Of a DNA stretch of 64,000 nt, positions 44,562 through 63,517 are shown piece after piece. Both the position numbers and the translations under genes were made by a program. Source of the stretch: Niveispirillum lacus (GTDB lineage Bacteria > Pseudomonadota > Alphaproteobacteria > Azospirillales > Azospirillaceae); NCBI RefSeq assembly GCF_002251795.1, contig NZ_NOXU01000030.1, positions 310,001-374,000 on the forward strand, given 5' to 3'. Numbering within the stretch: the first letter of the stretch is position 1; each line of letters starts with the position of its first letter. The notes beneath the pieces were generated by a model that searched no databases, had not been told where the DNA came from, and saw only the letters and a list, made by a program, of their open reading frames with translations.

Positions 44562-45824
44562 ATGGCGATGGATCGCCGGATCGAAAAAACAGGTTTTCAG
44601 AAGCACCAGAAGGCAATTGCCGGTGCCGCCATCGCCCTGTTGGTCGGGGCGGGTGGACTTTACCTGGCGCTGGGCGGAACGGGGGGGCAGACGGTACGTG
44701 TGGCCGAGGATCGGCTGATCGTCTCCAGTGTTTCTCAGGGCCAGTTCGAAGATTTTATCCCCGTGCGCGGGTCTGTGGAGCCGTTGACCAGTATCTTCCT
44801 GGACAGTGTTGAAGGAGGACGGGTGGAGCGCCGCTTTGCCGAAGCTGGGCAGTTCGTGAAGGCCGGTCAGCCGCTGCTGGAACTGACCAACACCGACCTG
44901 CAGCTGGAGGTGATCAGCCGCGAAGCACAGGTGATTGAACAGTTGAACCAGTTGCGCACGGTGGAACTGAACCTGGAAGTGACCCGCCTGAACAACCGGC
45001 AAAGTCTGGTGGAGGTGGAGTATAGGCTGGTGCAGTTGAAGCGCACCCTGGACCGCCGGGCCGAACTGATCAAAACCAAAGCCATCAGCCAGGCGCAGTT
45101 CGATGAGACACAGGATGAATATGAATATCTGCTTCGCCGCCGCGAGGTGCTGAAAGAAACGCAGAACGTCACCGATCGTCTGCGCGGAGAGCAGTATGAC
45201 AAACTGAAAGAAAGCACCAGCAAGCTACAGGAGAACCTGGAGTTTGCCCGCCGCAACCTGGACAATCTTATCGTCAAGGCCCCGGTCGATGGGCAGTTAA
45301 CCTCGCTTGAGGCCGAGGTGGGCCAGAACAAGACACGCGGTGAACGATTGGGCCGGATCGACCGCATGGACGGCTTCAAGGTGGTGGCCCAGGTCGATGA
45401 ATTCTATCTGCCACGCCTCGCCACGGGGCAGACGGCAGAAGTCGCCATGGGGACAGACACCTATGTCCTGCGCGTCGCCAAGATTTTCCCGCAGGTTCGC
45501 GATGGTCAGTTCCGGGTCGAACTGGAATTTGCCGGGGAGGCACCCAAGGACATCCGTCCCGGCCAGAGCCTGCAACTGCGGCTGAAGCTGGGCGATACCA
45601 CCACGGCGCTGCTGATCCCCAACGGCGCCTTTTATCAGGATACGGGCGGAGCGTGGCTGTTTGTCGTCGGTCCTGACGGCAGATACGCCACCAAGCGCAA
45701 TGTCCAGCTTGGCCGGCGCAATGCCCAGGTCATTGAAGTCAAAAGCGGTCTGGACAAGGGCGAGCGGGTCGTCACCTCGGCTTATGGCGACATGATCCGC
45801 ATGGACCGTATCCAGTTGAATTAA
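44562..45824 (+). CDS. HlyD/MacA-like periplasmic adaptor
   Basis: A 420-residue membrane fusion protein with one N-terminal membrane helix (AIAGAAIALLVGAGGLYLAL). The lipoyl domain halves (VEGGRVERRFAEAGQFVKAGQPLLEL and LIVKAPVDGQLTSLEAEVGQ) enclose a long coiled-coil hairpin (about residues 110-235) that would dock on an outer-membrane channel. A beta-barrel and membrane-proximal domain follow (LLIPNGAFYQDTGGAWLFVV). It is the adaptor for the ATPase and permeases downstream. GAGGGGAG precedes the ATG at 44562. No TolC-type gene is adjacent. Confidence 0.92.
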   Translation: MAMDRRIEKTGFQKHQKAIAGAAIALLVGAGGLYLALGGTGGQTVRVAEDRLIVSSVSQGQFEDFIPVRGSVEPLTSIFLDSVEGGRVERRFAEAGQFVKAGQPLLELTNTDLQLEVISREAQVIEQLNQLRTVELNLEVTRLNNRQSLVEVEYRLVQLKRTLDRRAELIKTKAISQAQFDETQDEYEYLLRRREVLKETQNVTDRLRGEQYDKLKESTSKLQENLEFARRNLDNLIVKAPVDGQLTSLEAEVGQNKTRGERLGRIDRMDGFKVVAQVDEFYLPRLATGQTAEVAMGTDTYVLRVAKIFPQVRDGQFRVELEFAGEAPKDIRPGQSLQLRLKLGDTTTALLIPNGAFYQDTGGAWLFVVGPDGRYATKRNVQLGRRNAQVIEVKSGLDKGERVVTSAYGDMIRMDRIQLN

Positions 45825-45970: not shown

Positions 45971-46651
45971 ATGTTGAAGCTGGTCGATCTGGTCAAGGCT
46001 TACCGCACCGAAGAAGTGGAAACCACGGCGCTGAATTCGGTGAACATCCATGTCCGTGATGGCGAATTCGTCGCCATCATGGGCCCGTCGGGCTGTGGCA
46101 AGTCCTCCTTGCTGAATATCGTGGGCATGCTGGATACGCCTACCAGCGGTCAATATTGGTTCAACGGCGAAGAAGTGTCGAAATATGGGGAGCGTAAGCT
46201 GGCCGATATCCGCAAGAAAAATATCGGTTTTATCTTCCAGAGCTTCAACCTGATCGACGAGCTGACTGTGTTCGAGAATGTCGAACTGGCCTTGCTGTAC
46301 CATGATATCCCGGCGCGTGAACGCAAGGAACGGGTGAAGGCGGCCCTGGAGAAGGTGAATATCGGCCATCGTGAGAGCCATCTGCCGCAGCAACTGTCCG
46401 GGGGTCAGCAGCAGCGTGTGGCGATCGCGCGTGCCGTGGTTGCCAAACCGAAAATGTTGCTGGCCGATGAACCGACCGGCAATCTGGACAGCGCGAATGG
46501 TGACGAGGTCATGCGCATGCTGACCGACTTGAACGCCGAAGGCACCACCATCGTCATGGTCACCCACTCCATGCCGCACGCTCAGTACGCAACGCGCATC
46601 ATCAATCTGTTTGACGGCCAGGTTGTGGCCGAAAACCTGCGCGCTGCCTGA
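45971..46651 (+). CDS. MacB/LolD-type ABC transporter ATPase
   Basis: A 226-residue ATPase: Walker [10 protein letters not shown] (about residues 38-46), Q-loop FIFQSFNL, signature LSGGQQQR, Walker [13 protein letters not shown] and the switch histidine in VMVTHS. The family powers FtsX-type permeases that move substrates from the periplasm outward by mechanotransmission. It lies 146 bp after the adaptor gene and 34 bp before the first of four permeases; it is the only ATPase in the cluster and must serve all four. AGGAAGGAACAAGGGA precedes the start. Confidence 0.95.
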
Positions 46652-46685
46652 TCGGTGTCACCCACGGCATCCGGGGGGATCTGCC

Positions 46686-49169
46686 ATGTTGAAGAACTAT
46701 CTGATGGTTGCCTTGCGCAACCTCCTTAAACACAAGCTCTATTCGGCAATCAATGTCACGGGTCTGGCGGTTGGTCTGGCGACCTGTGTGCTGATCTTGC
46801 TGTTTGTGCGTAATGAAACCTCCTACGACCGTTTCTTCACCGACAGCGACCGCCTTTATCAGGTGGCCTTCAAGGCGCAATTGCCAGGACGTCAGGTCGA
46901 TCATTTCGCCGTCTCCATGCTGCCCTTGGCCGCCGCAATGAAGGAAGGGCTGCCGGAGGTGGAAATGGCAGCCCGTGTGGTGCAGAGCAGTATCGTCATC
47001 AAACATGCGGGGGAGAGTTTTTCGGAGTCCGCCCGCGCCGTTGATCCCGACTTTTTCCGGATGTTTGATTTTCAGTTCCTGCGTGGCGATCGTCTGACCG
47101 CCCTGGACGAGCCGAACAGCATTGTCCTGACCGAAAGCATGGCGCGGAAATATTTCAAGGACGCGGAGGCTTTGGGCCAGACACTGGATATTGACGGGTC
47201 CGGTCCTGCCAAGGTTACGGGCGTCATTCAGGACATGCCCTCCAACACCCATTTCGACCTCGAAATCATCCGCCCCTATGCGGCGGTGGCTCAGGTCATG
47301 CGCCCGCTGGAATCCAACTGGGGCGGTGTCTGCTGCGAAACCTATGTGCGGTTGAAACCGGGGACGGATGGTAAGGCGCTCAGTGATCGCATGCCCGCCT
47401 GGTTCAAGACGGCCGCCCCGACGTTGAATTCCCCCACCGGCAATGTCGTGCTGGGGGAGATTTTTACGCCCCGCCTGCGTAACCTGAAGGATATTCATAC
47501 CGACCCGGTCATGTCTTCCATGCGGCCCGCCACGTCCTACGCGGAGATCATCACCTTCGCGGCCGTGGCAGCCCTGGTTCTGGCCATCGCGTCGATCAAT
47601 TTCATGAACTTGGCCACGGCGCGCGCCACCCAGCGGGCGCGGGAGGTCAGTGTGCGCAAGGTTGTGGGTGCGTCCCGCAGCCAGATCATCTTGCAGTTTA
47701 TTGGAGAGTCGTTGCTGCTGACCCTGATCGGCCTTGTTCTGTCCATTGCCCTGGTCGAGCTGGCCCTGCCGGCCTATTCGGCCTTCCTGGACAAGAAGTT
47801 GACCTTCAACCTGTTCACGGATCCGCTTCTCGGGCCGGCCCTGATCGGTCTGGCTCTTGTGGTGGGGGTGGCAGGGGGTGCCTATCCGGCGTTCTTCCTG
47901 TCCTCCTTTAACCCGGCCCGGGTGTTGAAAGGGGCCTCATCGGGTGTGGGCGGTGGTTCTGGCCGTCTGCGCATGGCCCTGGTGGTGGTGCAGTTCGCCA
48001 TCTCCATCGCTCTGATGGTGGCGACGGCTGTTGTCTATGGCCAACTCCTTTATGCCCAGAACAAGAATCTGGGGTTTGAGAAAGAAAACACCCTGGTCGT
48101 TCGCGGCTTCGCGCGCAGCGCGGACCGGGCCCGGCAGGAGACGCTGGTGGAAGCCTTGGCCAAACTGGATGGTGTGGTTGCCGTGGCGGGCAGCAACAGC
48201 ACGCCCGGTGATGGCAGTGAAAACAACACCAATGTCCGGCTGCCTGGCACCGATCCCAACCAGATGCTGGTGCTGCGCCAAAGTGGGGTTGATTGGGACT
48301 TTGTGAAGGCGCTGGGCCTGCGCATGGTCGCTGGCCGGGACTTTGACCGTAACCGTCCGGCCGACCAATTGCCGCCCCTGGCCGACCCGGCCGAGGCGCC
48401 GGCCGGTGGTAGCGCTGCCCCCACCTATCCCGGTTCCGTCATCCTCAACGAAGCGGCGGTCAAACGTCTGGGCTTTGCCAGCAATGAAGAGGCAATTGGC
48501 AAACAGTTCGAGGCACCGGCCGATGATGATGGCACCAACAAGCTCACCATTATCGGGGTCGTAGCGGATTTCCATTTCCGGTCGATCCATGACCCCATCC
48601 CGCCGGCGATGTTTTTCATTGACCGGGACCGGTTCTCCGACGTGCTGGTCCGGGTAAAGCCAGGTGATGTGCAGGCCACCCTGCGGGATATTGAGCGGGT
48701 CTGGCGCGACATGTTCCCGAACCGCCCGCTGAACCGGGAGTTCCTGGACGACCGTATCCAGTCGCAATATATCCGCGAAGCCAAGACCTCGCAGATGTTC
48801 GCCACCTTCTCCGGCCTCGCGATCCTGATCGCCTGTCTGGGTCTGTTCGGCTTGGCCAGCTTTACGGCTGAACGCCGGACCAAGGAAATTGGCCTGCGCA
48901 AGGTGCTGGGTGCCAGTGTCCTGGACATTGTGCGCCTGCTGGTCTGGCAGTTCAGCAAGCCTGTTCTGATCGCCAACCTCATTGCCTGGCCTGTGGCCTG
49001 GTACTTCATGGACTTGTGGCTGAACGGCTTCACGTTCCGGATTGGCCTCAATCCGCTGCTGTTTGTTGCGGCGGGCGGGCTGGCCCTGCTGATCGCCTGG
49101 GCGACCGTGGGTCTGCATGCGGCCCGGGTGGCCCAGGCCAAGCCGGTGACGGCGCTTCGGTACGAATGA
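46686..49169 (+). CDS. FtsX-type ABC permease 1
   Basis: An 827-residue permease. The N-terminal membrane helix (MLKNYLMVALRNLLKHKLYSAINVTGLAVGLATC) is followed by a periplasmic MacB-like domain, a bundle of membrane helices beginning at FMNLATARATQRAREVSVRKVVGAS (about 300), a second periplasmic domain (GLRMVAGRDFDRNRP) and a C-terminal helix bundle (FTAERRTKEIGLRKVLGASV). So it looks like two FtsX halves fused. The repeated RKVxGAS element is the coupling helix to the ATPase. Closest by eye to permease 2. Substrate unknown. Confidence 0.92.
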   Translation: MLKNYLMVALRNLLKHKLYSAINVTGLAVGLATCVLILLFVRNETSYDRFFTDSDRLYQVAFKAQLPGRQVDHFAVSMLPLAAAMKEGLPEVEMAARVVQSSIVIKHAGESFSESARAVDPDFFRMFDFQFLRGDRLTALDEPNSIVLTESMARKYFKDAEALGQTLDIDGSGPAKVTGVIQDMPSNTHFDLEIIRPYAAVAQVMRPLESNWGGVCCETYVRLKPGTDGKALSDRMPAWFKTAAPTLNSPTGNVVLGEIFTPRLRNLKDIHTDPVMSSMRPATSYAEIITFAAVAALVLAIASINFMNLATARATQRAREVSVRKVVGASRSQIILQFIGESLLLTLIGLVLSIALVELALPAYSAFLDKKLTFNLFTDPLLGPALIGLALVVGVAGGAYPAFFLSSFNPARVLKGASSGVGGGSGRLRMALVVVQFAISIALMVATAVVYGQLLYAQNKNLGFEKENTLVVRGFARSADRARQETLVEALAKLDGVVAVAGSNSTPGDGSENNTNVRLPGTDPNQMLVLRQSGVDWDFVKALGLRMVAGRDFDRNRPADQLPPLADPAEAPAGGSAAPTYPGSVILNEAAVKRLGFASNEEAIGKQFEAPADDDGTNKLTIIGVVADFHFRSIHDPIPPAMFFIDRDRFSDVLVRVKPGDVQATLRDIERVWRDMFPNRPLNREFLDDRIQSQYIREAKTSQMFATFSGLAILIACLGLFGLASFTAERRTKEIGLRKVLGASVLDIVRLLVWQFSKPVLIANLIAWPVAWYFMDLWLNGFTFRIGLNPLLFVAAGGLALLIAWATVGLHAARVAQAKPVTALRYE

Positions 49170-49177
49170 TTGGAAAC

Positions 49178-49217
49178 GGTTCGGCATGGTCCTGTGGGGA
49201 CCGGACCATGCCGAACC
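49178..49217 (+). promoter_or_regulatory. Long hairpin between permeases 1 and 2
   Basis: A perfect 15-bp stem (GGTTCGGCATGGTCC at 49178-49192 with 49203-49217) and 10-nt loop lie in the 95-bp gap. Only a weak TTTT occurs 10 nt later, so partial termination or mRNA processing is possible, which could set lower output for the last permeases. Confidence 0.55.
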
Positions 49218-49264
49218 ATCCCGCGTTTTAAGCACGGGGGCGTGTTTCGCGAAGGGGGGATGAG

Positions 49265-51757
49265 ATGCTTCGCAACTGGATCATGGTGGCCTTGCGCACG
49301 CTGCTGCGCCACCGGCTGCACGCTGTCCTTAATCTGTCCGGTTTGGCAGTCGGTCTGTCCGCCTGCCTCCTGATCCTGTTGTTCGTGCGCCATGAGACGG
49401 GTTACGACCGTTTCTTTACGGATGCCGACCGCCTCTATCAGGTGACCCTGGAATGGCGGGTGCCGGGTCGCAAGCCGGAACGCGCTGCCTATAGCCAGAT
49501 GGGCTTCGGCCCCGCCTTCAAGAATGCCCATCCGGAGGTCCAGGATTTCACCCGTTTCACCCAGGGACGGTCCATTTTATCCACTGGCGACCGGCAATTT
49601 TATGAATGGACGGTCACGGTTGATCCCAATTTTCTCTCCATGTTTGATTTCCGTCTGATTGCAGGCGATGCGGCGACAGCGCTGACCGATCCGTCATCCA
49701 TCGTCATGACCGAAGAAATGGCCCGTAAATATTTCGGCGATGCCCCGGCGCTGGGTCAGGTTGTGACGGTGGACCGTAAGCATGCGTTGAAGGTAACAGC
49801 GGTGCTGGCCAATCTGCCGCCCAATACCAGTCTGGATTTTGACCTTCTGCTGCCACAGCATTCGCCCGTCTCCGCCTGGATGCTGGAACAGGAGAAGCAC
49901 TGGGGTAACTCGAACGGGGCAACCTTCATCCGGCTGAAGCCGGGCGCCAGTGTCGAAGCGCTGCGGGCCGGCATGCGCGATTGGGTGAAACGGACCGTCA
50001 CCCCGTTGCAGACCCCACAAGGACCCATCGATCTGGCGGAACTGGTCTATCCCGATCTGCGTCCCCTGACGGATATCCATACCCATCCTTTGGCAGGCGA
50101 CATCACGCCGGGGATCAGCCAGACGGAACTGACCACCTTTACGGCAGTCGCCTTTCTGATCCTGATCATTGCCTGTATCAATTTCATGAATCTGGCAACG
50201 GCCCGCGCCACCCAGCGCGCGCGGGAAGTCAGCGTGCGCAAGGTGGTGGGCGCCAGCCGGGCCCAGTTGGTGGCACAGTTTCTTGGCGAAAGCGTACTGA
50301 TGACCGTTTTTGCCCTGTTGCTGTCCCTGGCCCTGGTGGAATTGGCTTTGCCGGCCTTCAGTGACTTTTTGGGTAAGGAACTGTCGCTGGATGTGCAGCA
50401 GGACCCGCTGCTGCTGCCGATGCTGCTGGGCCTTGTGCTGTTGGTCGGTATTGGCGGGGGGGCCTATCCGGCCTTCCTGCTATCCTCCTTCAATCCGGCC
50501 TACACGATGAAAAGTGCCGGCGCTGGCACCACGGGCGGTTCGGGTCGGCTGCGCACCACGCTGGTGGTGGTGCAGTTCGCCATCTCCATTGCGCTGATGG
50601 TGGCGACCTCAGTCGTGTATGGCCAGTTCATCTATGCCCAGCATAAAAACCTGGGATACAACACGGACAATACCCTGATCATTGGTCATTTCCGCGATGA
50701 TGGGGTCCGGGAGAAGACGCAGACCTTCATTGACATGCTGCGTCAGGACCCGGGTGTCGTTGGCATTGGGCTGTCCGGCCATATCCCTGGTGACGCCGGA
50801 GAGAACAATACCCTGATCAAGCGCCTGACCGGTGGTGCCCCTGATGATCTGCTGATGCGGCAGGACAGTGTCAGCCCCGGCTTTTTCGAGGCGCTGGGCA
50901 TGCAGATGGTCGCCGGCCGATCCTTTGACCGCGACCGTGCCGCAGATCTGGTGCAGCGCCCTGACTGGATGACGGAGAACCGCCCGCCGCCAGAGGGGAC
51001 CACCGAACTCTTCCTGCCGGCAGGTGTCATCTTGAATGAAAGCGCGGTTAAGGCGCTGGGGTTCGAGGGACCGGCAGCAGCCCTGGGCCAGCAGGTGAAA
51101 ATCATGGATGGCCCGGTCAGCTATCTGTTGGGCACCATCATCGGGGTGGTGGCGGATTTCCACTATCGCTCTGTTCATGAACCGATCCGGCCCGTCATGT
51201 ATATCAGCGACGAAACCCGTCACCATGCCATGGCTGTGCGGGCCAAGGCTGGGCACCTGCAGGCAGTGGTGGACAAGATCGACCGTGTCTGGGCCGAACT
51301 GGTCCCTGACCGGCCGATCCAGCGCAGTTTCTTCGATGTCAACATCGCCAACCAATATCAGCGCGAACAGAAAACTTCCCAGATGTTCGCCACCTTCTCG
51401 GCGCTTGCGATCTTCATTTCCTGCCTGGGGCTTTATGGGTTGGCCAGCTTCACGGCCGAACGCCGGACCAAGGAGATCGGCTTGCGCAAGGTGCTGGGCG
51501 CCAGTGTCCCGGACATTGTCCGTCTGCTGGTCTGGCAATTTTCCAAACCGGTTCTGGTCGCCAACCTGATTGCCTGGCCGGTGGCGTGGGTGTGTATGGA
51601 CCGCTGGCTGTCGGACTTCACTTACCGGATTGATCTGAATCCGTTGCTGTTTATGGGCGCGGGTTTGGTTGCCCTTGTGATCGCCTGGCTGACAGTGGGC
51701 CTGCACGCCGCCCGTGTCGCCCGGTCCCGGCCCATCACGGCCTTGCGGTACGAGTAG
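49265..51757 (+). CDS. FtsX-type ABC permease 2
   Basis: An 830-residue permease with the same two-half plan as its neighbours: N-terminal helix MLRNWIMVALRTLLRHRLHAVLNLSGLAVGLSAC, first periplasmic domain, FMNLATARATQRAREVSVRKVVGAS, second periplasmic domain (GMQMVAGRSFDRDRA) and FTAERRTKEIGLRKVLGASVPDIVRLL near the C-terminus. It is closest to permease 1; the two share long identical stretches around the first coupling helix. GAAGGGGGGATGAG precedes the ATG. A hairpin separates it from permease 1. Confidence 0.92.
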   Translation: MLRNWIMVALRTLLRHRLHAVLNLSGLAVGLSACLLILLFVRHETGYDRFFTDADRLYQVTLEWRVPGRKPERAAYSQMGFGPAFKNAHPEVQDFTRFTQGRSILSTGDRQFYEWTVTVDPNFLSMFDFRLIAGDAATALTDPSSIVMTEEMARKYFGDAPALGQVVTVDRKHALKVTAVLANLPPNTSLDFDLLLPQHSPVSAWMLEQEKHWGNSNGATFIRLKPGASVEALRAGMRDWVKRTVTPLQTPQGPIDLAELVYPDLRPLTDIHTHPLAGDITPGISQTELTTFTAVAFLILIIACINFMNLATARATQRAREVSVRKVVGASRAQLVAQFLGESVLMTVFALLLSLALVELALPAFSDFLGKELSLDVQQDPLLLPMLLGLVLLVGIGGGAYPAFLLSSFNPAYTMKSAGAGTTGGSGRLRTTLVVVQFAISIALMVATSVVYGQFIYAQHKNLGYNTDNTLIIGHFRDDGVREKTQTFIDMLRQDPGVVGIGLSGHIPGDAGENNTLIKRLTGGAPDDLLMRQDSVSPGFFEALGMQMVAGRSFDRDRAADLVQRPDWMTENRPPPEGTTELFLPAGVILNESAVKALGFEGPAAALGQQVKIMDGPVSYLLGTIIGVVADFHYRSVHEPIRPVMYISDETRHHAMAVRAKAGHLQAVVDKIDRVWAELVPDRPIQRSFFDVNIANQYQREQKTSQMFATFSALAIFISCLGLYGLASFTAERRTKEIGLRKVLGASVPDIVRLLVWQFSKPVLVANLIAWPVAWVCMDRWLSDFTYRIDLNPLLFMGAGLVALVIAWLTVGLHAARVARSRPITALRYE

Positions 51758-51778
51758 ATATCAACGGGGAGAGGGGCC

Positions 51779-54226
51779 ATGCTGCGGAACTGGCTTCTGA
51801 TCGCTTGGCGGCAATTGCTGCGGCACAAGCTCTACACCGCGATTAACGTGGTGGGTTTGGCCATTGGGCTGTCAGCCTGCATGATGATCGCGGTGCAGGT
51901 GCGCTTTGAAACCGGCTTCGATAGCTTCCATGCCAAGGCCGACCGTATCGTGCGCGTCAACCGCACGGACCAGTTCGCGGATATGCCGCGTTTGCGCAGC
52001 AACGTCACGGCTCTCCCCGTAGCGCCGGCTCTTGCCACCTTGCCGGAGGTGGAGGACACGGTGCGGCTGATCCCTTCCTTAGCCATGATCATCCATGGCG
52101 GGCAGCCGTTTCAGGAGGGTATGCTGCGCGTCGACCCGTCCTATGCGCGCATCTTCGACATTGTCTTTCTGAAGGGCGATCCATCTCTGGCCCTGGCACA
52201 GCCAGGTGATGCGGTGATCGCTAGAAGCACCGCTGCCAAATTCTTCGGCAGTGACGAAGCCCTGGGCCGGACCCTGACACTGGATAGCGGTCGCGTCCTG
52301 CGTATCACGGGCGTGATGGAGGACCCGCCGGTCAATTCACGCTTCCAGGCGAGCGTTCTGACCAACATAGCGACCAGCCTGAGCGATGCTGGTGACCGTG
52401 ATTTTCGACGGCGGGAGTTTTCCTGGAACAATTCCTGGCTTCAGACTTATCTGCTGCTGCGACCGGGCACCGATCCGGCGGCTGTGGAGGCGCGGTTCAG
52501 TGCGCTGCTGGCCGCATCGGTCCCCGACTACGTATCCCCCGACGATGCCAATGGGCGCTACAGCTTTACCCTGTCATTGCAGCCCCTGACCGATATCCGC
52601 ACCGATCCCGTCGCCGGGGAGCCTGGAACGCCGATAGAAGTTGTGCGCGGACTGGCCCTGATCGGCATTCTGGTGCTGTTGATTGCCGGCATCAATTTCG
52701 TGAACTTGACAACGGCGCGGGCCAGCCTGCGCCTGCGTGAAATCGGCGTGCGCAAGACGTTGGGCGCCCGGCGCGGCGGGCTTGTGGCACAGTTCCTTCT
52801 GGAATCTGTGATGCTCAGTTTAGTCGCCGGCATTGTGGCGTTGGCGGCAACGGAACTGCTGCTGCCAGTGGTGTTGGCCGCCCTCCAGGTTGTGGGCTTT
52901 ATCGATCCGTTCGCAGACCCGGTGCTTCTGGTGTCGCTATTGCTGCTGCCGCCCCTGCTCGGGCTGATCGCCGGTCTTTACCCGGCCCTGATCCTGTCAC
53001 GTGTCGGTGCGTCCGAAGGGGTGCGCGGGGCCATGGGGATAGGCGGCAAGCTGCGATCAGCGTTGGTGGTGATGCAGTTCGCCATTGCCATCACTCTGGC
53101 GATCGGTGCGCTGTTCGTGCTGATCCAGACCCGTTTCGCCGCCACCGAACGCCTGGGCTTCGACCGGGAGAATGTTCTGGTGATATGGGGTGCGCTGGGC
53201 AACAGCACGGAGCCGGTGGCTGATGCAAGGTTGGACGCATTGGCCCGTCTTCCGGGTGTGCTTTCGGTGGCCATGTCGGCCTGGGCCCCGGCTGATGGAT
53301 CACGGTCGAGTTCGGTCTATATCGTACCTGGCCGCATCGCGCCTGCGACCATGCGGGTGGAGCCGGTGGATTTCGGCTATATGAAGACACTGGGTGTGCC
53401 TCTGCTGGCTGGCCGGACCTTCGATCCTGCGTACGCCACCGACATTCTGCGTGCCGATAACGAGGGAGCGGATCGACCGCAAGCGAATGTGCTCGTCTCG
53501 CGCGCAGCCCTGCCCATACTTGGTGTGTCGCGGCCAGAAGATGCGCTCGGCCTGGTGATCCGACGCCCAGCCCTTGATGGCAATCCGACCGGCCAGGTCC
53601 TGACTGTCGTCGGCGTGGTGGAGGATATCCGGTTCGGCAGCGCGCGTGGCGATCTGGATGCAACGATCTTCACGATCGATCTGATGCAGCGGGGTACGAC
53701 GCTGGTTCGGCTGGCGCCGGGTGACCAACGCGCCACGCTGTCGGCTATTGACGAGCTTTGGAGCCGGATGGCGCCAAACCAGCCAATCCGCCGCTCCTTC
53801 CTGGATGAGAACATTGACCGTCTTTATGCCGCCGACGCCCGCCACGGCAAGGTCATCGCCACCTTCGCCGGTCTGGCCGTGATCATCGCCTGCATGGGCC
53901 TATACGGTCTGGCGGCGTTCACGGCGGAGCAGCGGACCAAGGAGATCGGCATCCGCAAGGTGCTGGGGGCCAGCGTGCCGGACATTGTCCGTCTGCTGGT
54001 CTGGCAATTCTCAAGGCCGGTGCTGCTGGCCAATCTCATTGCTTGGCCGCTAGCTTGGTATAGCGTCAGCCTGTGGCTGGAGGGGTTCGCTAGCAGAATT
54101 TCTCTCAACCCATTGGTCTTTATTGGTGTCAGTCTGGCGGCTCTGGTCATTGCCTGGGGTACCGTTGCGGGTCATGCGGCACGGGTGGCGGCGGAAACGC
54201 CCGTCCGCGCCTTGCGGTATGAATAG
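51779..54226 (+). CDS. FtsX-type ABC permease 3
   Basis: An 815-residue permease. The opening MLRNWLLIAWRQLLRHKLYTAINVVGLAIGLSAC, the coupling helices LRLREIGVRKTLGARRGG and EQRTKEIGIRKVLGASVPDIV, and the two periplasmic domains repeat the plan of permeases 1 and 2. The leader GGGGAGAGGGGCC directly before the ATG is identical in permease 4, and about 40 bp of early coding DNA are almost identical too, pointing to a recent duplication or gene conversion. It lies 21 bp after permease 2. Confidence 0.92.
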   Translation: MLRNWLLIAWRQLLRHKLYTAINVVGLAIGLSACMMIAVQVRFETGFDSFHAKADRIVRVNRTDQFADMPRLRSNVTALPVAPALATLPEVEDTVRLIPSLAMIIHGGQPFQEGMLRVDPSYARIFDIVFLKGDPSLALAQPGDAVIARSTAAKFFGSDEALGRTLTLDSGRVLRITGVMEDPPVNSRFQASVLTNIATSLSDAGDRDFRRREFSWNNSWLQTYLLLRPGTDPAAVEARFSALLAASVPDYVSPDDANGRYSFTLSLQPLTDIRTDPVAGEPGTPIEVVRGLALIGILVLLIAGINFVNLTTARASLRLREIGVRKTLGARRGGLVAQFLLESVMLSLVAGIVALAATELLLPVVLAALQVVGFIDPFADPVLLVSLLLLPPLLGLIAGLYPALILSRVGASEGVRGAMGIGGKLRSALVVMQFAIAITLAIGALFVLIQTRFAATERLGFDRENVLVIWGALGNSTEPVADARLDALARLPGVLSVAMSAWAPADGSRSSSVYIVPGRIAPATMRVEPVDFGYMKTLGVPLLAGRTFDPAYATDILRADNEGADRPQANVLVSRAALPILGVSRPEDALGLVIRRPALDGNPTGQVLTVVGVVEDIRFGSARGDLDATIFTIDLMQRGTTLVRLAPGDQRATLSAIDELWSRMAPNQPIRRSFLDENIDRLYAADARHGKVIATFAGLAVIIACMGLYGLAAFTAEQRTKEIGIRKVLGASVPDIVRLLVWQFSRPVLLANLIAWPLAWYSVSLWLEGFASRISLNPLVFIGVSLAALVIAWGTVAGHAARVAAETPVRALRYE

Positions 54227-54238
54227 GGGAGAGGGGCC

Positions 54239-56680
54239 ATGCTGCGGAACTGGATACTGGTGGCGGTGCGCAACCTCATGCGCCATAAGCTCTATACCGC
54301 GATTAACGTGGTGGGTTTGGCCGTGGGTCTGGCGGCGGCGCTGTTGATCATGGTCTTTGTCCGCCATGAACTGTCCTACAATGAGCGGTTTACCCAAATT
54401 GATGATGTCTGGCGTGTCAACCGGACCATGATCATCAATGATCGGGCGCCAGAGGCGACAGCCGCCATTTCCATGCCGGTCGGCCCCGCCTTGACACAGG
54501 ATTTCCCCGAAATCGTGCAGGCGGTGCGGGCGGCCCGCGTGCGTGAGGTGGTGCGGCGAGGTGGTGACAGCCTCTATCAGTTGTTCACTGCCGTTGACCC
54601 GGATTATTTCAGCATTTTTGATTGGCATTTCCTGGCGGGTGATCCGGCCACGGCGCTGGCCCAGCCCAATACGACTGTTCTCACCCTCGCGACTGCCGAG
54701 AAACTGTTCGGCACCAGCAATGTCTTGGACCGGACGGTCGAACTGGGGTCCGGAGTGGTGCTGCGGGTGACCGGGGTGATTGAGAACCCGCCCCTCAATG
54801 TCACGCATCGCCCGGAGGCACTGATCGCACTTTCCACCCCGTTGCAGTCAATCGACCGGACACGCGATCAATGGGGGTGGAACTGGATCGACACCTATGT
54901 CCGGCTGGCGCCGGGTGCCGATGCCAGGCGGATCGAGGCGGCTTTGCCCGATTTCCTGCGCCGTAACAATCCTGCTGCGGCCGAGTATGAACGCAACGGC
55001 GATCGCACCATCCTGACCCTGCAGCCGGTGCGGGATATCCATACTGCGCCGTTGAATGCCGATGAAGGCACCAGCATGGCGATGATTTCCGGCCTGCTGG
55101 CCCTGGCCTTCCTCATTCTGGGCATAGCCGGCATCAACTTCGTCAATCTGGCGACGGCGCGGGCCACCACGCGGGCGCGGGAGGTGGCAATGCGCAAAAC
55201 GCTGGGGGCGTCACGCGCATTACTGGTGCTGCAATTTCTGGCGGAGAGCGTGCTGCTGACCTTCATCGCGGGGCTGATTGCGGTGGCGCTGGTGGAGATC
55301 TTGCTGCCAACCTTCCAGGACATGATGTCCATGGCCATTGAACCCGACTATCGCAGTCTGGCGAGCATGGTGGTCATCGCAACCGGCCTGTCTTTCGGCC
55401 TGGGGGTGCTGGGCGGGTTCTATCCAGCCCTTGTTCTGTCGGGTTTCCGGCCTGCGCACATATTGCGGGGCAGCAGTAAGGGCGGTGCCGGGGCTGGCCG
55501 GCTGCGGGCCATCCTGGTGGTCGTGCAGTTTGCCGTGGCCATCGCCCTGACTGTTGGTACGTTTGTGGTGTTACAACAGACCCGTTATGCCAGTTCGCAG
55601 CGTCTGGGTTTTGACAAGGACAATGTCGTCCTGTTGCGCGGTATGGATAATCCGGCAGCGCTGCCCCGCATGCAGATGCTGAAGCAGCGGTTGGCGGCCG
55701 ATCCCGGCGTGGTGGCCGTGGCCGGCGCGCCTTGGGTTCCGTCCGATACGTCGGAAACCACCAGCACTTATCGCCGCACCGATGACGGCCAAGGGGCCGC
55801 CATCACCATCCGCACCGATCTGGTTGATTTTGGATATTTCGAGGTGCTGGGTGCCCGCTTGCTGGCCGGCCGGACATTTGACGAAAATTATGGAACCGAT
55901 GCCGTGCTCTCTGCGGCTGACGGAAAGGTGATACAGGGGCGAACAGCCGCGACCGTCCTGTCATTGACGGCGGTGCGGCAACTGGGCTGGGGGGATGCAT
56001 CCTCGGCCCTGGGCCGCACCTTGCTGTATCCCGATGATGGCGGCGATGTGACCCTGACCGTTGTCGGCGTGGTGGAAGATCTGCAATATCGCAGCGCGCG
56101 GGACCGCACTGTGGCCACGGTTTATCAGGCTGCGCCCGACGCCACCGGAACCTTGATGGTACGGGTCCGGCCCGATACCGTTCCCGCCGTGCTGAACCGC
56201 ATCGACAGTCTGTGGAAAGAACTTGTGCCGGAAGTGCCGGTGCGTCGGCAGTTCCTGGATGAGCGGATCGAACAGCTCTATGCGCTGGATGTTCGCCAGG
56301 GGCAATTGTTCGCGGCCTTTGCGGGTCTGGCCGTAATCATTGCCTGTCTGGGCCTGTTTGGCCTCGCCAGTTTCACCGCCGAACGCCGGACAAAGGAGAT
56401 CGGTATCCGTAAGGTGCTGGGCGCTTCTGTTGCGGATTTGGTGCGCCTGCTGGTCTGGCAATTCTCAAGGCCGGTGCTGCTGGCCAACCTGATCGCTTGG
56501 CCGGTCGCTTGGTATGGGCTAAGCCGCTGGCTGGAAGGATTTGCGTATCGGATCGACCTGAACCCGTTGCTGTTTCTGGCGGCTGGGGGCGGGGCGTTGC
56601 TGATCGCCTGGGTCACCGTCGCGGGGCAAGCGGCCCGTGTTGCGGTGGAAAAGCCGATCAAGGCCTTGCGGTACGAATGA
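54239..56680 (+). CDS. FtsX-type ABC permease 4
   Basis: An 813-residue permease, last gene of the exporter operon, 12 bp after permease 3. It shows MLRNWILVAVRNLMRHKLYTAINVVGLAVGLAAA, FVNLATARATTRAREVAMRKTLGAS, a second periplasmic domain (GARLLAGRTFDENYG) and FTAERRTKEIGIRKVLGASVADLVRLLVWQ. It is closest to permease 3. The stop codon lies 23 bp inside the convergent mobA gene. With one ATPase for four permeases, different heterodimers may form; this is inference. Confidence 0.92.
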   Translation: MLRNWILVAVRNLMRHKLYTAINVVGLAVGLAAALLIMVFVRHELSYNERFTQIDDVWRVNRTMIINDRAPEATAAISMPVGPALTQDFPEIVQAVRAARVREVVRRGGDSLYQLFTAVDPDYFSIFDWHFLAGDPATALAQPNTTVLTLATAEKLFGTSNVLDRTVELGSGVVLRVTGVIENPPLNVTHRPEALIALSTPLQSIDRTRDQWGWNWIDTYVRLAPGADARRIEAALPDFLRRNNPAAAEYERNGDRTILTLQPVRDIHTAPLNADEGTSMAMISGLLALAFLILGIAGINFVNLATARATTRAREVAMRKTLGASRALLVLQFLAESVLLTFIAGLIAVALVEILLPTFQDMMSMAIEPDYRSLASMVVIATGLSFGLGVLGGFYPALVLSGFRPAHILRGSSKGGAGAGRLRAILVVVQFAVAIALTVGTFVVLQQTRYASSQRLGFDKDNVVLLRGMDNPAALPRMQMLKQRLAADPGVVAVAGAPWVPSDTSETTSTYRRTDDGQGAAITIRTDLVDFGYFEVLGARLLAGRTFDENYGTDAVLSAADGKVIQGRTAATVLSLTAVRQLGWGDASSALGRTLLYPDDGGDVTLTVVGVVEDLQYRSARDRTVATVYQAAPDATGTLMVRVRPDTVPAVLNRIDSLWKELVPEVPVRRQFLDERIEQLYALDVRQGQLFAAFAGLAVIIACLGLFGLASFTAERRTKEIGIRKVLGASVADLVRLLVWQFSRPVLLANLIAWPVAWYGLSRWLEGFAYRIDLNPLLFLAAGGGALLIAWVTVAGQAARVAVEKPIKALRYE

Positions 56681-57523: not shown

Positions 57524-59218
57524 ATGCCCAATTCCATTGATGTGTCCAAGCCGCTTGTCGCCGGCCAGACGCACGGCAGCCTGACCGTGGTTGGCACTGG
57601 TATTCGTTCGATTTCGCACTTCACGCAGGAAGCCATCGGCCATATCCGCGATGCTGATGCGGTGTTTTTTGCTGTGCCGGATGGTGTCACCGCCAGTTTT
57701 ATCCGCGATCTGAATCCAGACGCTTATAATCTTGCCCTGCATTATGGCGAGGATAAGCGTCGCCTGGTCACCTATGTGCAGATGGCGGAGATTATCCTGC
57801 GGGCCGTACGCGAAGGCAAGCGCGTGACCGCTGTGTTCTATGGACATCCGGGTTTCTTTGTGTCACCGGCCCGCCGCGCCCTGAATATCGCGCGCAAGGA
57901 AGGCCATCGTACGGAGATGCTGCCTGGCATTTCCTCCACCGACTATCTGTTTGCCGACCTGCGCATTGATCCGGCGGTGAGTGGCTGCCAGATCCTGGAA
58001 GCCAGCGACATGCTTCTGCGCAACCGGCCGGTCGTCACTTCCAGCCATGTCGTCCTTCTCCAGGTGGGTTCTGTCGGTGACAGCTATTATTCGGTCAAGG
58101 GTTTCAAGAACAACAAGCGCGCCATTCTGTTTGAGCGCCTGATTGAGCTGTATGGTGAGAACCACCCCTCCTACCATTATGTTGGCGCTACCTTCCCCGG
58201 TATGGAGAGCCAGATCGTGCGCCGGCCGCTGAAGGCCTACCGTGATCCGGCCGTACGCGCCTCTGTGCATTCCGCCTGCACCTTCTATCTGCCGCCGAAG
58301 GACATTCTGCCGCTGGATCAGGAGATGGCGGAGAAGCTGGGTATGGGATTGCCCGCCAGTTCCTCCACCCGTCCCGGTGATGCCCTGCCGCCGAGCCGTA
58401 CCGGTGACTATGGTCTGTTCGAGTTGGACGCGATTGCCCGACTGGATCGTGAAGGGCTTGGGGGCCGTGAACGCATGCCGTCCAAGGCGCTTTTCCGCGT
58501 CCTGGCGCAAATGGCGACCAATCCCGATGCCACGGATGCCTACCGACGTGACTCCAAAACCTATGTCAGTCTGTTCAGTGGCCTAACGATCGAAGAAAAG
58601 TCGGCGCTGGCACAGCGCAGCGCCCCGGCCCTCCACGCTGTTGCATTGCAAATCGACCGCGCTGTGTCCGATGCGTCCGGTGCTCAATCGCCGGTTCTGT
58701 CAGCCGGACAGAAGCATACCGCGGTTGGTCAGCAACCTGTGGACACTCCGCCTCTGGTGACGCCGACCAGTGCCTCTCACGCCGAGCAGCATGAGACGGA
58801 ACAGCACGAGGCGGAACAGCACGTCACGGAGCAGCACGAGACGGAGCAGCACGAGGCGGAACAGCACGTCACGGAGCAGCACGAGACGGAGCAGCACGAG
58901 GCAGAGCAGCACGTCACGGCCCAGCATGACACGGAGCAGCACGAGACGGAGCAGCACGAGGCGGAACAGCACGTCACGGAGCAGCATGAGACGGAGCAGC
59001 ACGAAGCGGAACAGCACGTCACGGAGCAGCACGAGACGGAGCAGCACGAGGCAGAGCAGCACGTCACGGAGCAGCACGAGACGGAACAGCACGTCACGGA
59101 ACAACACGTCACGGAGCAGCACGAGACGGAACAACACGTCACGGAACAACACGTCACGGAGCAGCATGATGCCATGGAGCAGCATGATGTGCTTGAGCAA
59201 CACGTGACAGATAAGTAA
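57524..59218 (+). CDS. Borosin-type peptide N-methyltransferase fused to an EQHxx repeat tail
   Basis: A 564-residue protein in three parts. Residues 1-250 are a tetrapyrrole-methylase fold like OphMA: GSLTVVGTGIRSIS (18-31, SAM loop), FYGHPGFFVSPARRALNIARKEG (105-127), MLPGISSTDYLFADLRIDPAVSGCQILEASD (132-162) and LLQVGSVGDSYYS. Y74, R80 and Y84 have the spacing of the catalytic Tyr-Arg-Tyr of OphMA. Residues ~270-370 include a helical part (LFRVLAQMATNPDATDAYRR, then LTIEEKSALAQ) like the clasp/borosin-binding domain. From residue ~422 the tail is 28 units of EQHxx. In borosins the C-terminal core is N-methylated in trans by the partner of a dimer, giving a RiPP. AGGGGGAAC precedes the ATG. 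No sigma-54 promoter was found for it. Confidence 0.85.
   Translation: MPNSIDVSKPLVAGQTHGSLTVVGTGIRSISHFTQEAIGHIRDADAVFFAVPDGVTASFIRDLNPDAYNLALHYGEDKRRLVTYVQMAEIILRAVREGKRVTAVFYGHPGFFVSPARRALNIARKEGHRTEMLPGISSTDYLFADLRIDPAVSGCQILEASDMLLRNRPVVTSSHVVLLQVGSVGDSYYSVKGFKNNKRAILFERLIELYGENHPSYHYVGATFPGMESQIVRRPLKAYRDPAVRASVHSACTFYLPPKDILPLDQEMAEKLGMGLPASSSTRPGDALPPSRTGDYGLFELDAIARLDREGLGGRERMPSKALFRVLAQMATNPDATDAYRRDSKTYVSLFSGLTIEEKSALAQRSAPALHAVALQIDRAVSDASGAQSPVLSAGQKHTAVGQQPVDTPPLVTPTSASHAEQHETEQHEAEQHVTEQHETEQHEAEQHVTEQHETEQHEAEQHVTAQHDTEQHETEQHEAEQHVTEQHETEQHEAEQHVTEQHETEQHEAEQHVTEQHETEQHVTEQHVTEQHETEQHVTEQHVTEQHDAMEQHDVLEQHVTDK
58789..59212 (+). repeat. 28-unit pentapeptide (EQHxx) DNA repeat
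   Basis: A 15-bp unit (for example ACGGAGCAGCACGAG) repeated without frame loss. Amino-acid units are EQHET, EQHEA and EQHVT, arranged mostly as a 45-bp higher-order triplet ET-EA-VT, six times with one AQHDT substitution; later units simplify to VT/VT/ET, and two near the end are six residues long (EQHDAM, EQHDVL). The last is EQHVTDK. Copy number probably varies between strains. Confidence 0.95.
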
Positions 59219-59345: not shown

Positions 59346-62183
59346 GTGCGCGACTCTGTTTCTGGCATTCCGATTGACTATTTCGGCTTGCCAAGCGATG
59401 TGGCTGAGGCTGAATTGCGCGCCAATGGGCCTGATGCCGACTGGCGGGATGTGGTTATTCTTGCGTGGTACCTGCGGCAGCGCAATCCGATGCGATGCCA
59501 GGATCTCATTGCCTCAGTGCTGCCCAGCGCCGGCCAGCTTTCCGACGTTTTGAAAGGTCGGCTTCTTTTATCAGTTTCAGAAAGTCTGAGATTACAAGCG
59601 AAGTTTGATGAAGCACTTCGTAACGTGAACGAAGCTGATTCTTATTTTGCTGCGGCTGGGGACAGTCTGGGGCGTGGTGACAGTGCTTTTTGTCGCGCTG
59701 AAATCCATTTAATGTCGGGAACGGTCTCTTCTGCGTATGCGGATTTCGATTCAGCGATCTGCTTCTATCAGGCGGCCAATGATGATATCCGGCTGTTTAC
59801 TGTCAGATGTCGGGTGGCATATCAGCGGCAATACGAAGATTTGAAAAGTGCGGCACGCCAGTGGATGGATACGTTGCGGGAAGACTTGCTTCCGGCCCAT
59901 CCCGGTGTTCTGGCCTATATGGCCGCCTTTCGCGGTGGCGTAGCGTTCCAGCGCGGTGATTTTCCAACGGCCATTCGTATCTGGCAGGCCGGATTTGAAA
60001 GTGCGGGAACAACAGGTGCAGTTTGGCTGGCCGTCCATCTGGCAATGATGATCGGGTCCGCTTTCGCCAATCTGTACGATCTTTCCACTGCGATGGAGTG
60101 GAAAGAAAAGGCTTACAACCTCGCCGCACCAACCGGCTGGCCAGAAGCCATCGGTACGTCACTCGCTTCGATGGCGGAGACGACGACGAGCCTCGGGCAG
60201 CTCGAACGGGCGCGTGTGTTGTTTGAAGATGCTTTGCCTTATCTGGACAGGCTCAACAGTATTCGTCGGCACGTTATCAGTTATAATGCATTCGGTGGTC
60301 TTTGCCTGCTGATGAACGCGCCGGAAGAAGCCCTGTCCTGGTTTGAGAAGGGCCTTGCGATTGCGCGTAAACTTGGGCAACCGGATTTGGAGTTGCCCAA
60401 TGGCGTGGGGGTTGTGACGGCCCTTCTCCAGACCGGCCGACTTGAGGCTGCGGCGGCCATGGCAGAAGAGGTTCGTCGGCAGGCGTGTGACCAACGCAAT
60501 CCATATTATGAAATTGAAGCGATAAGGGTGCGGGCTGCCATTCTGCGCACCACGTCGCCGACAGACCTGGCTCCGGTTATTGAAATCATGGAACAGGCCA
60601 TCGCCTTGGGTGACAGCCTGAGTGGGATGATGATCCGGTCAGAAATTTATGCTGAGCTGGCCCGTGATTACGAGGCGGCTGGCGATTACCGGAAGGCGCT
60701 AGCCTATGAACGGCGCAGCCGCGAAAGCTGGCAGCGTAACTTCGACCGCCAGAACGGTGCGCGTATTCAGGCCTTGCAGGTTCGTTTTGATACCGCCCGG
60801 GCCAAGGCAGAGGCGGAGCATAACCGAGCGCTGGCAGAGGCTGAGGCGACGCGGGCGGCCGAGTTGGACCATGCCAATCAGACACTGGAACGGCTGGGTG
60901 TGATCGGGCAGGAAATTACGGCGCGTCTGGATGCGGAAGCAGTGTTTACCACCCTGTCGCGCCATCTGCACGATCTCATGCCCACCAACACCCTGTTCGT
61001 GGGACTGAAGGACGAAGTCAACCAGATCATTGATATTCGTTTCCGTACGGAGGATGGCCGGCGCCTGCCGCCGCGTCAGGTGCCGCTGGCATCTGACAAA
61101 CTCTCTGCCCGTTGTGTGCGGGATAATGAGGAGATCCTGGTGGCCTGGGGGGAACGCACCATTCCCGACAGCGTGCCGGGTACACGTCACATGCGCACGG
61201 TCCTGTTCCGACCGCTGGCGCTTGGCAATCGTGTTTTGGGTGTTGTGTCCGTTCAGAGCGACCAGCCCAATGCCTATGGGCCCCGGGAACTGCTGATTTT
61301 CCGGACCATCTGCGCTTATGGGGCCATCGCCATGGCCAATGCTGAGGCCTATCAGCAGTTGGACCGCGCCGTGGGTGAAACCCGCGAGGCTCTGCAGCGT
61401 CTGGTGCAGCAGGAAAAAATGGCGGCCCTGGGTCAATTGGTGGCCGGCGTGGCGCATGAGGTCAACACACCGCTCGGCGTCACCCTGTCTGCCGTATCAC
61501 AGTTGAATGACAGTATTCGCTCTCTGCACGGGCAGGTCGAAAAGGGACTGCTGACCCGGTCCGGTCTGACAGAGGCGCTGGATAATGGGCGGGAACTGGC
61601 TGCCCTGGCCCAGCGCAATGTGACCCGTGCGGCTGACATGATCCGCACCTTCAAGGGCGTGGCGGTGGATCATGGCAGTGATGAACGCCGTATCTTTGAA
61701 CTGGGCGATTATCTGTCAGAGATCATGTCGCTGATCCGGGCCCGTGTTGCCGGTAACGGCAATCGCATCGAAATCGATGTCATGCCGATCCAGATGGATA
61801 CCTATCCTGGCGCCCTGGCCCAGGTCATCACCAATCTGGTGACCAATATCGCTGATCATGCCTATGCACCCGACCGGCCCGGGCGCATCATTCTGCGCGG
61901 GCGGGCGATTGACGCCTATATGGTGGAAATTGCGGTGGTGGATCAGGGCTGTGGCATCCCAGCCGATATCCTGCCCAAGGTGTTTGATCCGTTCTTCACC
62001 ACCCGTCGGGCGGCTGGCAGTATGGGGTTGGGTCTGCATGTTGTGTTTAATCAGGTGACGCAACGGCTTAGCGGGGCCATCACCATCGACAGTGTTCTGG
62101 GCCAGGGCACCGTGGCCACAGTGCGCATTCCGCGCGAAGTGCCGAACTATGTTCCCACGGCCTTCTTTCCCCTGCCAACCTGA
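59346..62183 (+). CDS. TPR-GAF hybrid-sensor histidine kinase (no receiver)
   Basis: A 945-residue soluble kinase. Residues ~40-450 are TPR-like helical repeats (LLMNAPEEALSWFEKGLAIARKLG), then a coiled coil (ARAKAEAEHNRALAEAEATRAA, ~470-500), a GAF domain (IGQEITARLDAEAVFTTLSRHLHDLMPTNTLFVGL, ~510-675), and the kinase core with phosphoacceptor in VAGVAHEVNTPLGVTL and ATPase boxes VTNIADHAYAPDRPG, VVDQGCGIP, FDPFFTTRR and GSMGLGLHVV. The start is a GTG at 59346; an ATG 47 codons later is an alternative. No response regulator is adjacent. It follows the borosin-like gene at 127 bp and ends 20 bp from the convergent micropeptide cassette; it may sense the peptide product, which is inference. 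Confidence 0.9.
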   Translation: MRDSVSGIPIDYFGLPSDVAEAELRANGPDADWRDVVILAWYLRQRNPMRCQDLIASVLPSAGQLSDVLKGRLLLSVSESLRLQAKFDEALRNVNEADSYFAAAGDSLGRGDSAFCRAEIHLMSGTVSSAYADFDSAICFYQAANDDIRLFTVRCRVAYQRQYEDLKSAARQWMDTLREDLLPAHPGVLAYMAAFRGGVAFQRGDFPTAIRIWQAGFESAGTTGAVWLAVHLAMMIGSAFANLYDLSTAMEWKEKAYNLAAPTGWPEAIGTSLASMAETTTSLGQLERARVLFEDALPYLDRLNSIRRHVISYNAFGGLCLLMNAPEEALSWFEKGLAIARKLGQPDLELPNGVGVVTALLQTGRLEAAAAMAEEVRRQACDQRNPYYEIEAIRVRAAILRTTSPTDLAPVIEIMEQAIALGDSLSGMMIRSEIYAELARDYEAAGDYRKALAYERRSRESWQRNFDRQNGARIQALQVRFDTARAKAEAEHNRALAEAEATRAAELDHANQTLERLGVIGQEITARLDAEAVFTTLSRHLHDLMPTNTLFVGLKDEVNQIIDIRFRTEDGRRLPPRQVPLASDKLSARCVRDNEEILVAWGERTIPDSVPGTRHMRTVLFRPLALGNRVLGVVSVQSDQPNAYGPRELLIFRTICAYGAIAMANAEAYQQLDRAVGETREALQRLVQQEKMAALGQLVAGVAHEVNTPLGVTLSAVSQLNDSIRSLHGQVEKGLLTRSGLTEALDNGRELAALAQRNVTRAADMIRTFKGVAVDHGSDERRIFELGDYLSEIMSLIRARVAGNGNRIEIDVMPIQMDTYPGALAQVITNLVTNIADHAYAPDRPGRIILRGRAIDAYMVEIAVVDQGCGIPADILPKVFDPFFTTRRAAGSMGLGLHVVFNQVTQRLSGAITIDSVLGQGTVATVRIPREVPNYVPTAFFPLPT

Positions 62184-62203: not shown

Positions 62204-62356
62204 TTAAATCAGCGCGTGCAGCGTGATGGACAGAAAGGCGGCGACGGCCAGGACGGTGACGGCCTCGATGATGCCGGCGCTGTCTTTGAGCGTGCTCGCC
62301 AAACCGGACAGGACATCTTCGGCATCATGGGCGGCGGCGTGGATGTAAGCGGACAT
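62204..62356 (-). CDS. Micropeptide A1 (MSAYIH type)
   Basis: A 50-residue peptide below the usual size cut-off. The N-terminus is MSAYIHAAAHDAEDVLSGLA; the C-terminus (IIEAVTVLAVAAFLSITLHALI) is hydrophobic and could form a membrane helix. AAGGAGAA lies 5 nt before the ATG. It differs from micropeptide A3 at 63146 in only 2 of 50 residues. It is the second gene of a two-gene cassette behind a sigma-54 promoter at 62603. No cysteine and no double-glycine leader, so it is not a typical bacteriocin precursor. Function unknown; it could be exported or act in the membrane. Confidence 0.85.
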   Translation of the reverse strand: MSAYIHAAAHDAEDVLSGLASTLKDSAGIIEAVTVLAVAAFLSITLHALI

Positions 62357-62409
62357 GATGTTCTCCTTCAGGGTGGGGTGGGGCAGGGAAGGGCTGGGGT
62401 CGGGTTTGA

Positions 62410-62559
62410 TCAGAGCATCAGGTTCAGGCAGGCGGTCAGGACGGCCGCGATGCTCAGCACGGCCGTCGCTTCGGCCAGGTCTGCGGCTGTCGGCACCGAG
62501 GCCAGCACCGTTTCGATCAGGGAGCCTTCGGTTTCGATCTTGTTCGTCAGGTCGGTCAT
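62410..62559 (-). CDS. Micropeptide B2 (MTDLTN type)
   Basis: A 49-residue peptide: MTDLTNKIETEGSLIETVLA, then SVPTAADLAEATAVLSIAAV and LTACLNLML. Acidic N-terminal half, hydrophobic C-terminal half, one cysteine. GGAG lies 6 nt before the ATG at 62559. It is first in its cassette, 44 nt after a perfect sigma-54 promoter. It is homologous to micropeptide B5 at 63518 (shared MTDLTN start, LASxPTAADL core and ML end). The longer frame upstream is not coding. Confidence 0.85.
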   Translation of the reverse strand: MTDLTNKIETEGSLIETVLASVPTAADLAEATAVLSIAAVLTACLNLML

Positions 62560-62602
62560 TTTTATCTCCATCATGATTTGTTGTCTGGATGTCTGTAGTA
62601 CA

Positions 62603-62617
62603 GCAAAGGCCGTGCCA
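62603..62617 (-). promoter_or_regulatory. Sigma-54 promoter of the left micropeptide cassette
   Basis: On the minus strand TGGCACGGCCTTTGC matches the -24/-12 consensus TGGCAC-N5-TTGC at every fixed position. It is 44 nt before micropeptide B2 and exactly 116 bp from the first upstream dyad. Confidence 0.92.
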
Positions 62618-62732
62618 AGTGCTATTTGGGTGTATTCTGGAAAATAATTAGCCATCATGATGGTCGCTTTATTCACTTGATGGAAAAAATAACGATATTA
62701 TGGCCCATTGATCATGTGGTGGTGATGGCGAC

Positions 62733-62780
62733 TGTCCGAAAACGGACAATGGCATCTCGTTCGCTGTCCGTGTGCGAACA
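62733..62780. promoter_or_regulatory. Paired upstream dyads of the left cassette
   Basis: TGTCCGAAAACGGACA (62733-62748, perfect) and TGTCCGTGTGCGAACA (62765-62780, one mismatch), centre to centre 32 bp, about three helical turns. They fit upstream activating sites for an NtrC-type activator. Confidence 0.88.
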
Positions 62781-62850
62781 ATGTCGCCGAACGTAGTTTT
62801 ACGTTGTCCTGCTCCGGCGATCTCCGGCAGGTCGGTTTTGCGACAAACGC

Positions 62851-62876
62851 AAAAACCCGCCGGAAAGGCCGGCGGG
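62851..62876 (-). terminator. Terminator of the right micropeptide cassette
   Basis: On the minus strand a CCCGCCGG/CCGGCGGG stem (62856-62863 with 62869-62876, 5-nt loop) is followed by five T. It lies 270 bp after the stop of micropeptide A3 and before the dyads of the left cassette. Confidence 0.85.
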
Positions 62877-63145
62877 CGCGGATGCGAGGAGGGGCGTAAT
62901 CTGGGTGATCTAAGGGACCGGCGCGTCGACCCGGCGAGGGCGGGTGCGCAATGCCGGCGTCCGACCGGGCGGATGCCTGTGCTGAAGCGGGGACTGGAAA
63001 GCAGAAGGGGCGCTTTGGGCGCGACCGTCAGGGCGGTCTGTGTGGCGCTGCCGTTAAGGGGGCGGTGCGCAGCAGGGTGTGACGGCTCTCCGGCCATCGC
63101 CACCCCCATCCCCCGCCGCCGGGCGGCATGGGGGAGAAGGGTGGA
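62877..63145. other. 270-bp stretch between A3 and its terminator
   Basis: Transcribed with the right cassette if the terminator at 62851 is used. The only long frame (62669-63109, minus) lacks a ribosome binding site and runs through the terminator, so it was not called. It may hold a long 3' UTR or a small RNA; nothing specific is seen. Confidence 0.4.
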
Positions 63146-63298: not shown

Positions 63299-63327
63299 GA
63301 TGTTCTCCTTCGGGGTGGGGTGGGGGA

Positions 63328-63480: not shown

Positions 63481-63517
63481 TGTCTTCTCCATCATTTCAA
63501 AAACATGGGGGCAGTGA

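Follow-up and report, generated by a model that had tools for sequence, protein, structure and literature searches.

A gene of the alphaproteobacterium Niveispirillum lacus appears, with good support from sequence comparison, to encode a peptide backbone N-methyltransferase of the OphMA type that is fused to its own probable substrate. The gene starts with ATG and lies in a 64,000-nucleotide stretch of contig NZ_NOXU01000030.1, the whole of which we call the window. The reading we favor, and consider likely, is that of a fused borosin whose C-terminal repeat tail is the core, methylated on its backbone to give an acidic product specific to the species.

Table 1. Position, strand and basis of the features discussed, in window coordinates
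Feature	Position	Strand	Basis
Fused protein of borosin type, 564 aa, made up of methyltransferase, clasp/BBD, linker and repeat tail	57524..59218	+	ORF, Pfam, structure matches
Alpha-N-methyltransferase domain, residues about 17-258, with Y74, R80, Y84, Y106, S137, Q180	57572..58297	+	OphMA and family alignment
Clasp / borosin-binding-domain (BBD) region, residues about 300-384, SKALFRVLAQMATNPDATDAYRRD...	58421..58675	+	OphMA clasp alignment; family conservation
Linker from clasp to repeat array, unconserved across relatives	58676..58783	+	Family comparison
Predicted core of 28 [E/A]QHxx units, with six-residue spacing in the last three	58784..59209	+	TRF; unit and codon table
TPR-GAF-HisKA-HATPase sensor kinase, directly downstream of the borosin gene	59346..62183	+	Pfam; synteny
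DarC-like periplasmic adaptor, possible exporter part (tentative)	44562..45824	+	NCBIfam DarC 2.6e-62, under curated cut-off
DarD-like ABC ATPase, possible exporter part (tentative)	45971..46651	+	NCBIfam best match DarD 1e-82, under curated cut-off
Four tandem ADOP/DarB-like ABC permeases (borosin association tentative)	46611..56680	+	NCBIfam

The only Pfam domain found in the protein is TP_methylase (5e-18), a superfamily that holds both the corrin enzymes and the borosin methyltransferases. Compared with solved structures, the protein matches OphMA best (E-value 2e-71, 38% identity over 368 aa). MroMA (9e-70) and SonM (7e-36) also match, and the highest-placed precorrin enzyme has an E-value of 0.003. 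The OphMA match extends over residues 17-384, and it covers the clasp as well as the catalytic domain. OphMA residues Y66, R72, Y76, Y98, S129, and Q172 align with Y74, R80, Y84, Y106, S137, and Q180, and all six are kept in the 16 aligned members of the repeat clade (15 fused proteins and the split enzyme of genome G012). A preliminary description of this DNA had proposed an OphMA-type methyltransferase with its own C-terminal repeats as probable substrate, a proposal that the OphMA match, the retained residues, and the precursor-like gene of G012 described below bear out. Both motif blocks it pointed to, FYGHPGFFVSP and MLPGISSTDYLFADL, are in the open reading frame, and the Tyr-Arg-Tyr triad it gave (Y74, R80, Y84) aligns exactly with that of OphMA. 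It had also called for an alignment to OphMA and SonM, whose E-values are those above, and had named as fatal a placement among precorrin enzymes without the catalytic Tyr and Arg; the Tyr and Arg residues are all there and the precorrin similarity is marginal.

In bacterial KchMA, mutants at the equivalent catalytic positions lose activity, apart from the Tyr to Phe change at the Y66 equivalent, which is mild, and the counterpart of OphMA Y63 is of moderate importance only (PMC11395268). The Y63 position, a substrate contact in OphMA, is an alanine (A71) in the window protein according to the family alignment. The clasp is assigned by sequence alignment to OphMA; an AlphaFold2 model of the methyltransferase and clasp, made with only four related sequences, has a pLDDT of 45 and is too poor to confirm it.

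The repeat units of the tail occupy residues 421-562 (about 142 residues). We count 27 EQH units and one AQH unit, in agreement with the 28 first reported. The array ends in EQHDAM EQHDVL EQHVT, and this six-residue spacing is the period found in sister species. Tandem Repeats Finder describes a 15-bp unit in 25.5 copies (score 437), and its two rows for the whole window both correspond to this array. The tail is 25% D/E and 21% aliphatic or aromatic. For units one super-repeat (15 codons) apart, the single-base codon differences are 17 synonymous to 3 non-synonymous, when about 27% synonymous would be expected. This synonymous excess in the frame of the gene argues that the array is not chance DNA. 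One antisense frame shows a similar excess (20:7), so that the codon test alone cannot choose the strand; it is the continuity with the methyltransferase frame that does.

The repeat tail is not unique to this protein, as had been supposed. Fifteen relatives within the Azospirillaceae carry repeat tails after the same domains, built of different units. The alignment of 15 fused proteins consists of the window protein and fourteen others, and G039 (locus L016, with a VQDQN tail) completes the fifteen relatives. In all 15 aligned proteins, the array comes after the clasp, in the place that the core takes in OphMA. Acidic and with hardly any Lys or Arg, the arrays have periods of 5 or 15, 6 or 12, 9, 10, and 13, and with units such as EQHET, AELNDA, EEHIAT, VEELNEHND, VQDQNVSTED, EQDAAELSSx, and TENVPPSDTDLNV. 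Single-base codon differences between units add up to 449 synonymous and 81 non-synonymous over the 15 arrays (85% synonymous, versus about 27% expected by mutation alone), counts that lack independence, since duplication gives rise to the units; the synonymous excess is present in every one of the arrays. On the other hand, the window protein and that of G003 have methyltransferase domains that are 94% identical, yet their tails are made of EQHxx and GENHDA units, respectively. Taken together, the synonymous excess and this contrast suggest that the sequence of the unit is constrained inside a species and free to change across species. Copy number also changes, from 8 to 12 units among close enzymes of genus g2. 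The tails at loci L043 and L044 (G003 and G010) have a conserved non-repeat element (GTWDYLLSAAKADA / SQWDYMLSAGKQDA) between two repeat blocks, which the window tail does not have.

Genome G012 presents the same two parts as separate genes. Its enzyme has the clasp and a short non-repeat tail. A 125-aa ORF (MTTIVPTELDQPDVIELSGGELDVA...) made of ELSGGELDVA units precedes the enzyme gene on that strand, about 100 nt away. In the tree, the G012 enzyme groups with the fused enzymes in one clade with support 98/96. That the repeats are part of the enzyme in some genomes and are encoded by a small gene of their own in another is the pattern one expects of a substrate or precursor. A strong hairpin lies between the array gene and the enzyme gene, and a pattern scan of that gap finds no consensus terminator. 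We presume that the G012 enzyme may be RceM. The name RceM appears among enzymes of types V, VII, and VIII in the borosin literature (PMC11395268).

In all 12 loci for which there is downstream sequence, the gene directly after the borosin gene encodes a GAF-HisKA-HATPase kinase and has the same orientation. The N-terminus of the kinase is variable: TPR in genera g1, g3, and g13, and a two-component-regulator propeller in g2 (L037). Full-length orthologs of the kinase are present in the borosin-bearing genomes of g1, g3, and g13, and none is found in G001 and G008, two genomes of the same genus that lack the borosin (G001 has a 38% paralog only). Past the window kinase and convergent with it, positions 62207-63667 of the reverse strand hold about five ORFs for peptides of about 50 aa (for example MTDLTN...SLLSSFLASLPTAADLIEA...) with a hydrophilic start and a hydrophobic end. 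These peptides have no family match, and relatives of them occur at the equivalent place in L033 and L035.

How does this protein compare with known borosins? The type I fused fungal enzymes OphMA and dbOphMA likewise consist of methyltransferase, clasp, and C-terminal core, with the same catalytic residues. The OphMA core, however, is short and hydrophobic (the omphalotins are dodecapeptides), whereas the window tail is a long series of acidic five-residue repeats. The type III borosins, including the bacterial KchMA, are also fused and carry a long putative core that alternates acidic and other residues, with up to 11 methylations in KchMA, some of them on Asp (PMC11395268). KchMA is the longer protein, its modified residues lying between 742 and 796, and the part of its description at hand contains no link to a kinase (PMC11395268), in contrast with the GAF kinase adjoining the window gene. 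The word "repeat" does not occur in the KchMA paper (PMC11395268); the window tail, compared here with the description of type III cores, is long and acidic but made of strict tandem repeats. Thus, the window protein is a variant of a known borosin class, and long acidic cores are not new in themselves, contrary to the first impression that a long hydrophilic core would define a different class of product. Class 2 split borosins, as far as the same source describes them, have a methyltransferase with BBD and a core on a separate protein (PMC11395268); G012 matches this arrangement with a repeat core, and the window gene, with the core on the same polypeptide, does not. The type IV split system SonM/SonA has a homologous methyltransferase and BBD, but there the BBD belongs to the separate precursor SonA, together with a short core whose methylated residues are Leu63 and Ile65 (PMC8429565). 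In the literature on Rhodospirillum centenum and Niveispirillum, searches turned up nothing on this locus; that on bacterial borosins was covered in part, so an earlier description of this lineage may exist.

By homology to OphMA, the protein would work as a homodimer, the clasp/BBD guiding each C-terminal repeat tail into the active site of the other subunit. There, backbone amides within the repeats would be methylated iteratively, with S-adenosylmethionine as the methyl donor. SonM chiefly contacts the backbone of the peptide and has a hydrophobic pocket for the residue that is methylated (PMC8429565). KchMA has a preference for Ala, Val, and Leu, and acidic, basic, and aromatic residues went unmethylated at the position tested in the engineered enzyme (PMC11395268). 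Given a hydrophobic pocket at the methylated residue, side chains that elsewhere are hardly read, and the KchMA preference, the likeliest methylation sites would be the small V, A, or T residues in the variable part of the units (as in EQHVT or EQHEA). Units such as EQHET, which have only T on offer, may be poor substrates under the limits seen for KchMA. With arrays turning over in unit, period, and copy number, each species would probably make its own acidic repetitive product, one that is co-regulated with the neighboring GAF histidine kinase or sensed by way of it. A much larger claim, that this lineage makes long polyanionic repetitive backbone N-methylated polypeptides, varied in each species by turnover of the repeats, and has a dedicated signaling module in which the GAF kinase senses or controls the product, strikes us as rather unlikely. 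No releasing protease was identified adjoining the window borosin gene.

Three other explanations need to be weighed against a methylated repeat core. One accepts a genuine borosin methyltransferase but takes the tail as a spacer, a tag, or a disordered expansion, with the true substrate a separate peptide that is modified in trans. Such split borosins are well known (PMC8429565), the window and two relatives offer a candidate in the cluster of small peptides downstream of the kinase, and the tail is strongly hydrophilic and differs much from species to species. Against it, an array of like acidic composition stands after the clasp in every fused member, the codon differences indicate constraint at the protein level, and in G012 the array has its own gene beside an enzyme that lacks it; a genome-wide search also finds no second EQH array. 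We therefore hold this explanation to be distinctly unlikely.

The two remaining alternatives fare worse. A His/Glu-rich metal-binding domain, methylated or not, was suggested early on by the EQH units, and indeed His accounts for 30 of the 192 residues of the window tail, and EEH, EDH, or ENH units occur in several of the sister species. The orthologous tails of G006, G004, G022, and five g2 genomes, however, have between none and two His, and with His absent or rare in so many relatives, metal binding is rejected as the shared function and is very improbable as an account of the tail. As for an ordinary tetrapyrrole or precorrin methylase that acquired a low-complexity tail by slippage, there is the Pfam family itself, plus weak NCBIfam matches to CbiE and YabN that fall far under their cut-offs. 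Yet the precorrin-2 methyltransferase similarity (0.003) is nowhere near that to OphMA, the protein has the Tyr/Arg set of borosins as well as the clasp, and no corrin gene is found among the neighbors of the borosin gene. A corrin-pathway identity is rejected on these grounds, and we give this last explanation almost no credence.

If the repeats are indeed the substrate, then this family, with about fifteen naturally fused enzymes that share a conserved catalyst and differ sharply in their repeat cores, plus one split version, amounts to an experiment by nature on which sequences a borosin methyltransferase accepts, very hydrophilic ones included. Ribosomal routes to backbone N-methylation are rare, and they are in demand for making drug-like peptides. 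We know of no physiological role for most bacterial borosins, and the constant kinase neighbor is a testable lead to one.

Genes for RiPP exporters are often found nearby and their type varies, with a complete NHLM export set in G009 and matching genes in G002. In the window, the first of the four permeases matches ADOP (1e-103) and DarB (6e-44), and two other permeases tested behave alike, all of them under the curated NCBIfam cut-offs. ADOP/DarB-like permeases are also seen upstream of the borosin gene in several genomes of the genus. The link between exporter and borosin is only suggestive, and it is weakened by mobA, which lies on the opposite strand between the permeases and the borosin gene in the window. 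In genus g2, the borosin neighbors include an Os1348-type NHLP peptide and a RiPP radical SAM enzyme. As an example, L037 (13951-16323) has an Os1348-family NHLP peptide and a B12 radical SAM RiPP C-methyltransferase near the fused borosin, and a solute-binding protein and a second GAF kinase stand between those genes and the borosin.

Of the 13 genera in the family, 4 were found to have borosin-type enzymes of this clade, three with the repeat-tailed form and the fourth with the split form. A sample of the class (385 genomes) adds a single member, G091, which is tailless and distant. The enzymes from a sample of the phylum are mostly shorter, apart from a single large fused protein. Large fused homologs of 740-800 aa, carried on plasmids of Azospirillum lipoferum and Mycetohabitans, have a different C-terminus and no repeats, and they are adjoined by a StrG-annotated gene in two of the three records. 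The genome of the window itself has a second borosin-type methyltransferase of about 1000 aa (G000:C26:268433-269425, reverse strand; L003 5160-9396), with a long C-terminal extension that includes an Asp/Asn-rich run and with a cytochrome P450 gene following it; in G003 (L042) the same protein occurs, and a similar gene follows there too. Finally, the tailless enzyme of G091 (L031 8609-12271) adjoins lasso-peptide-like genes, for a PqqD-type chaperone and a lasso-cyclase-like protein, that hint at a possible RiPP cluster of hybrid type.
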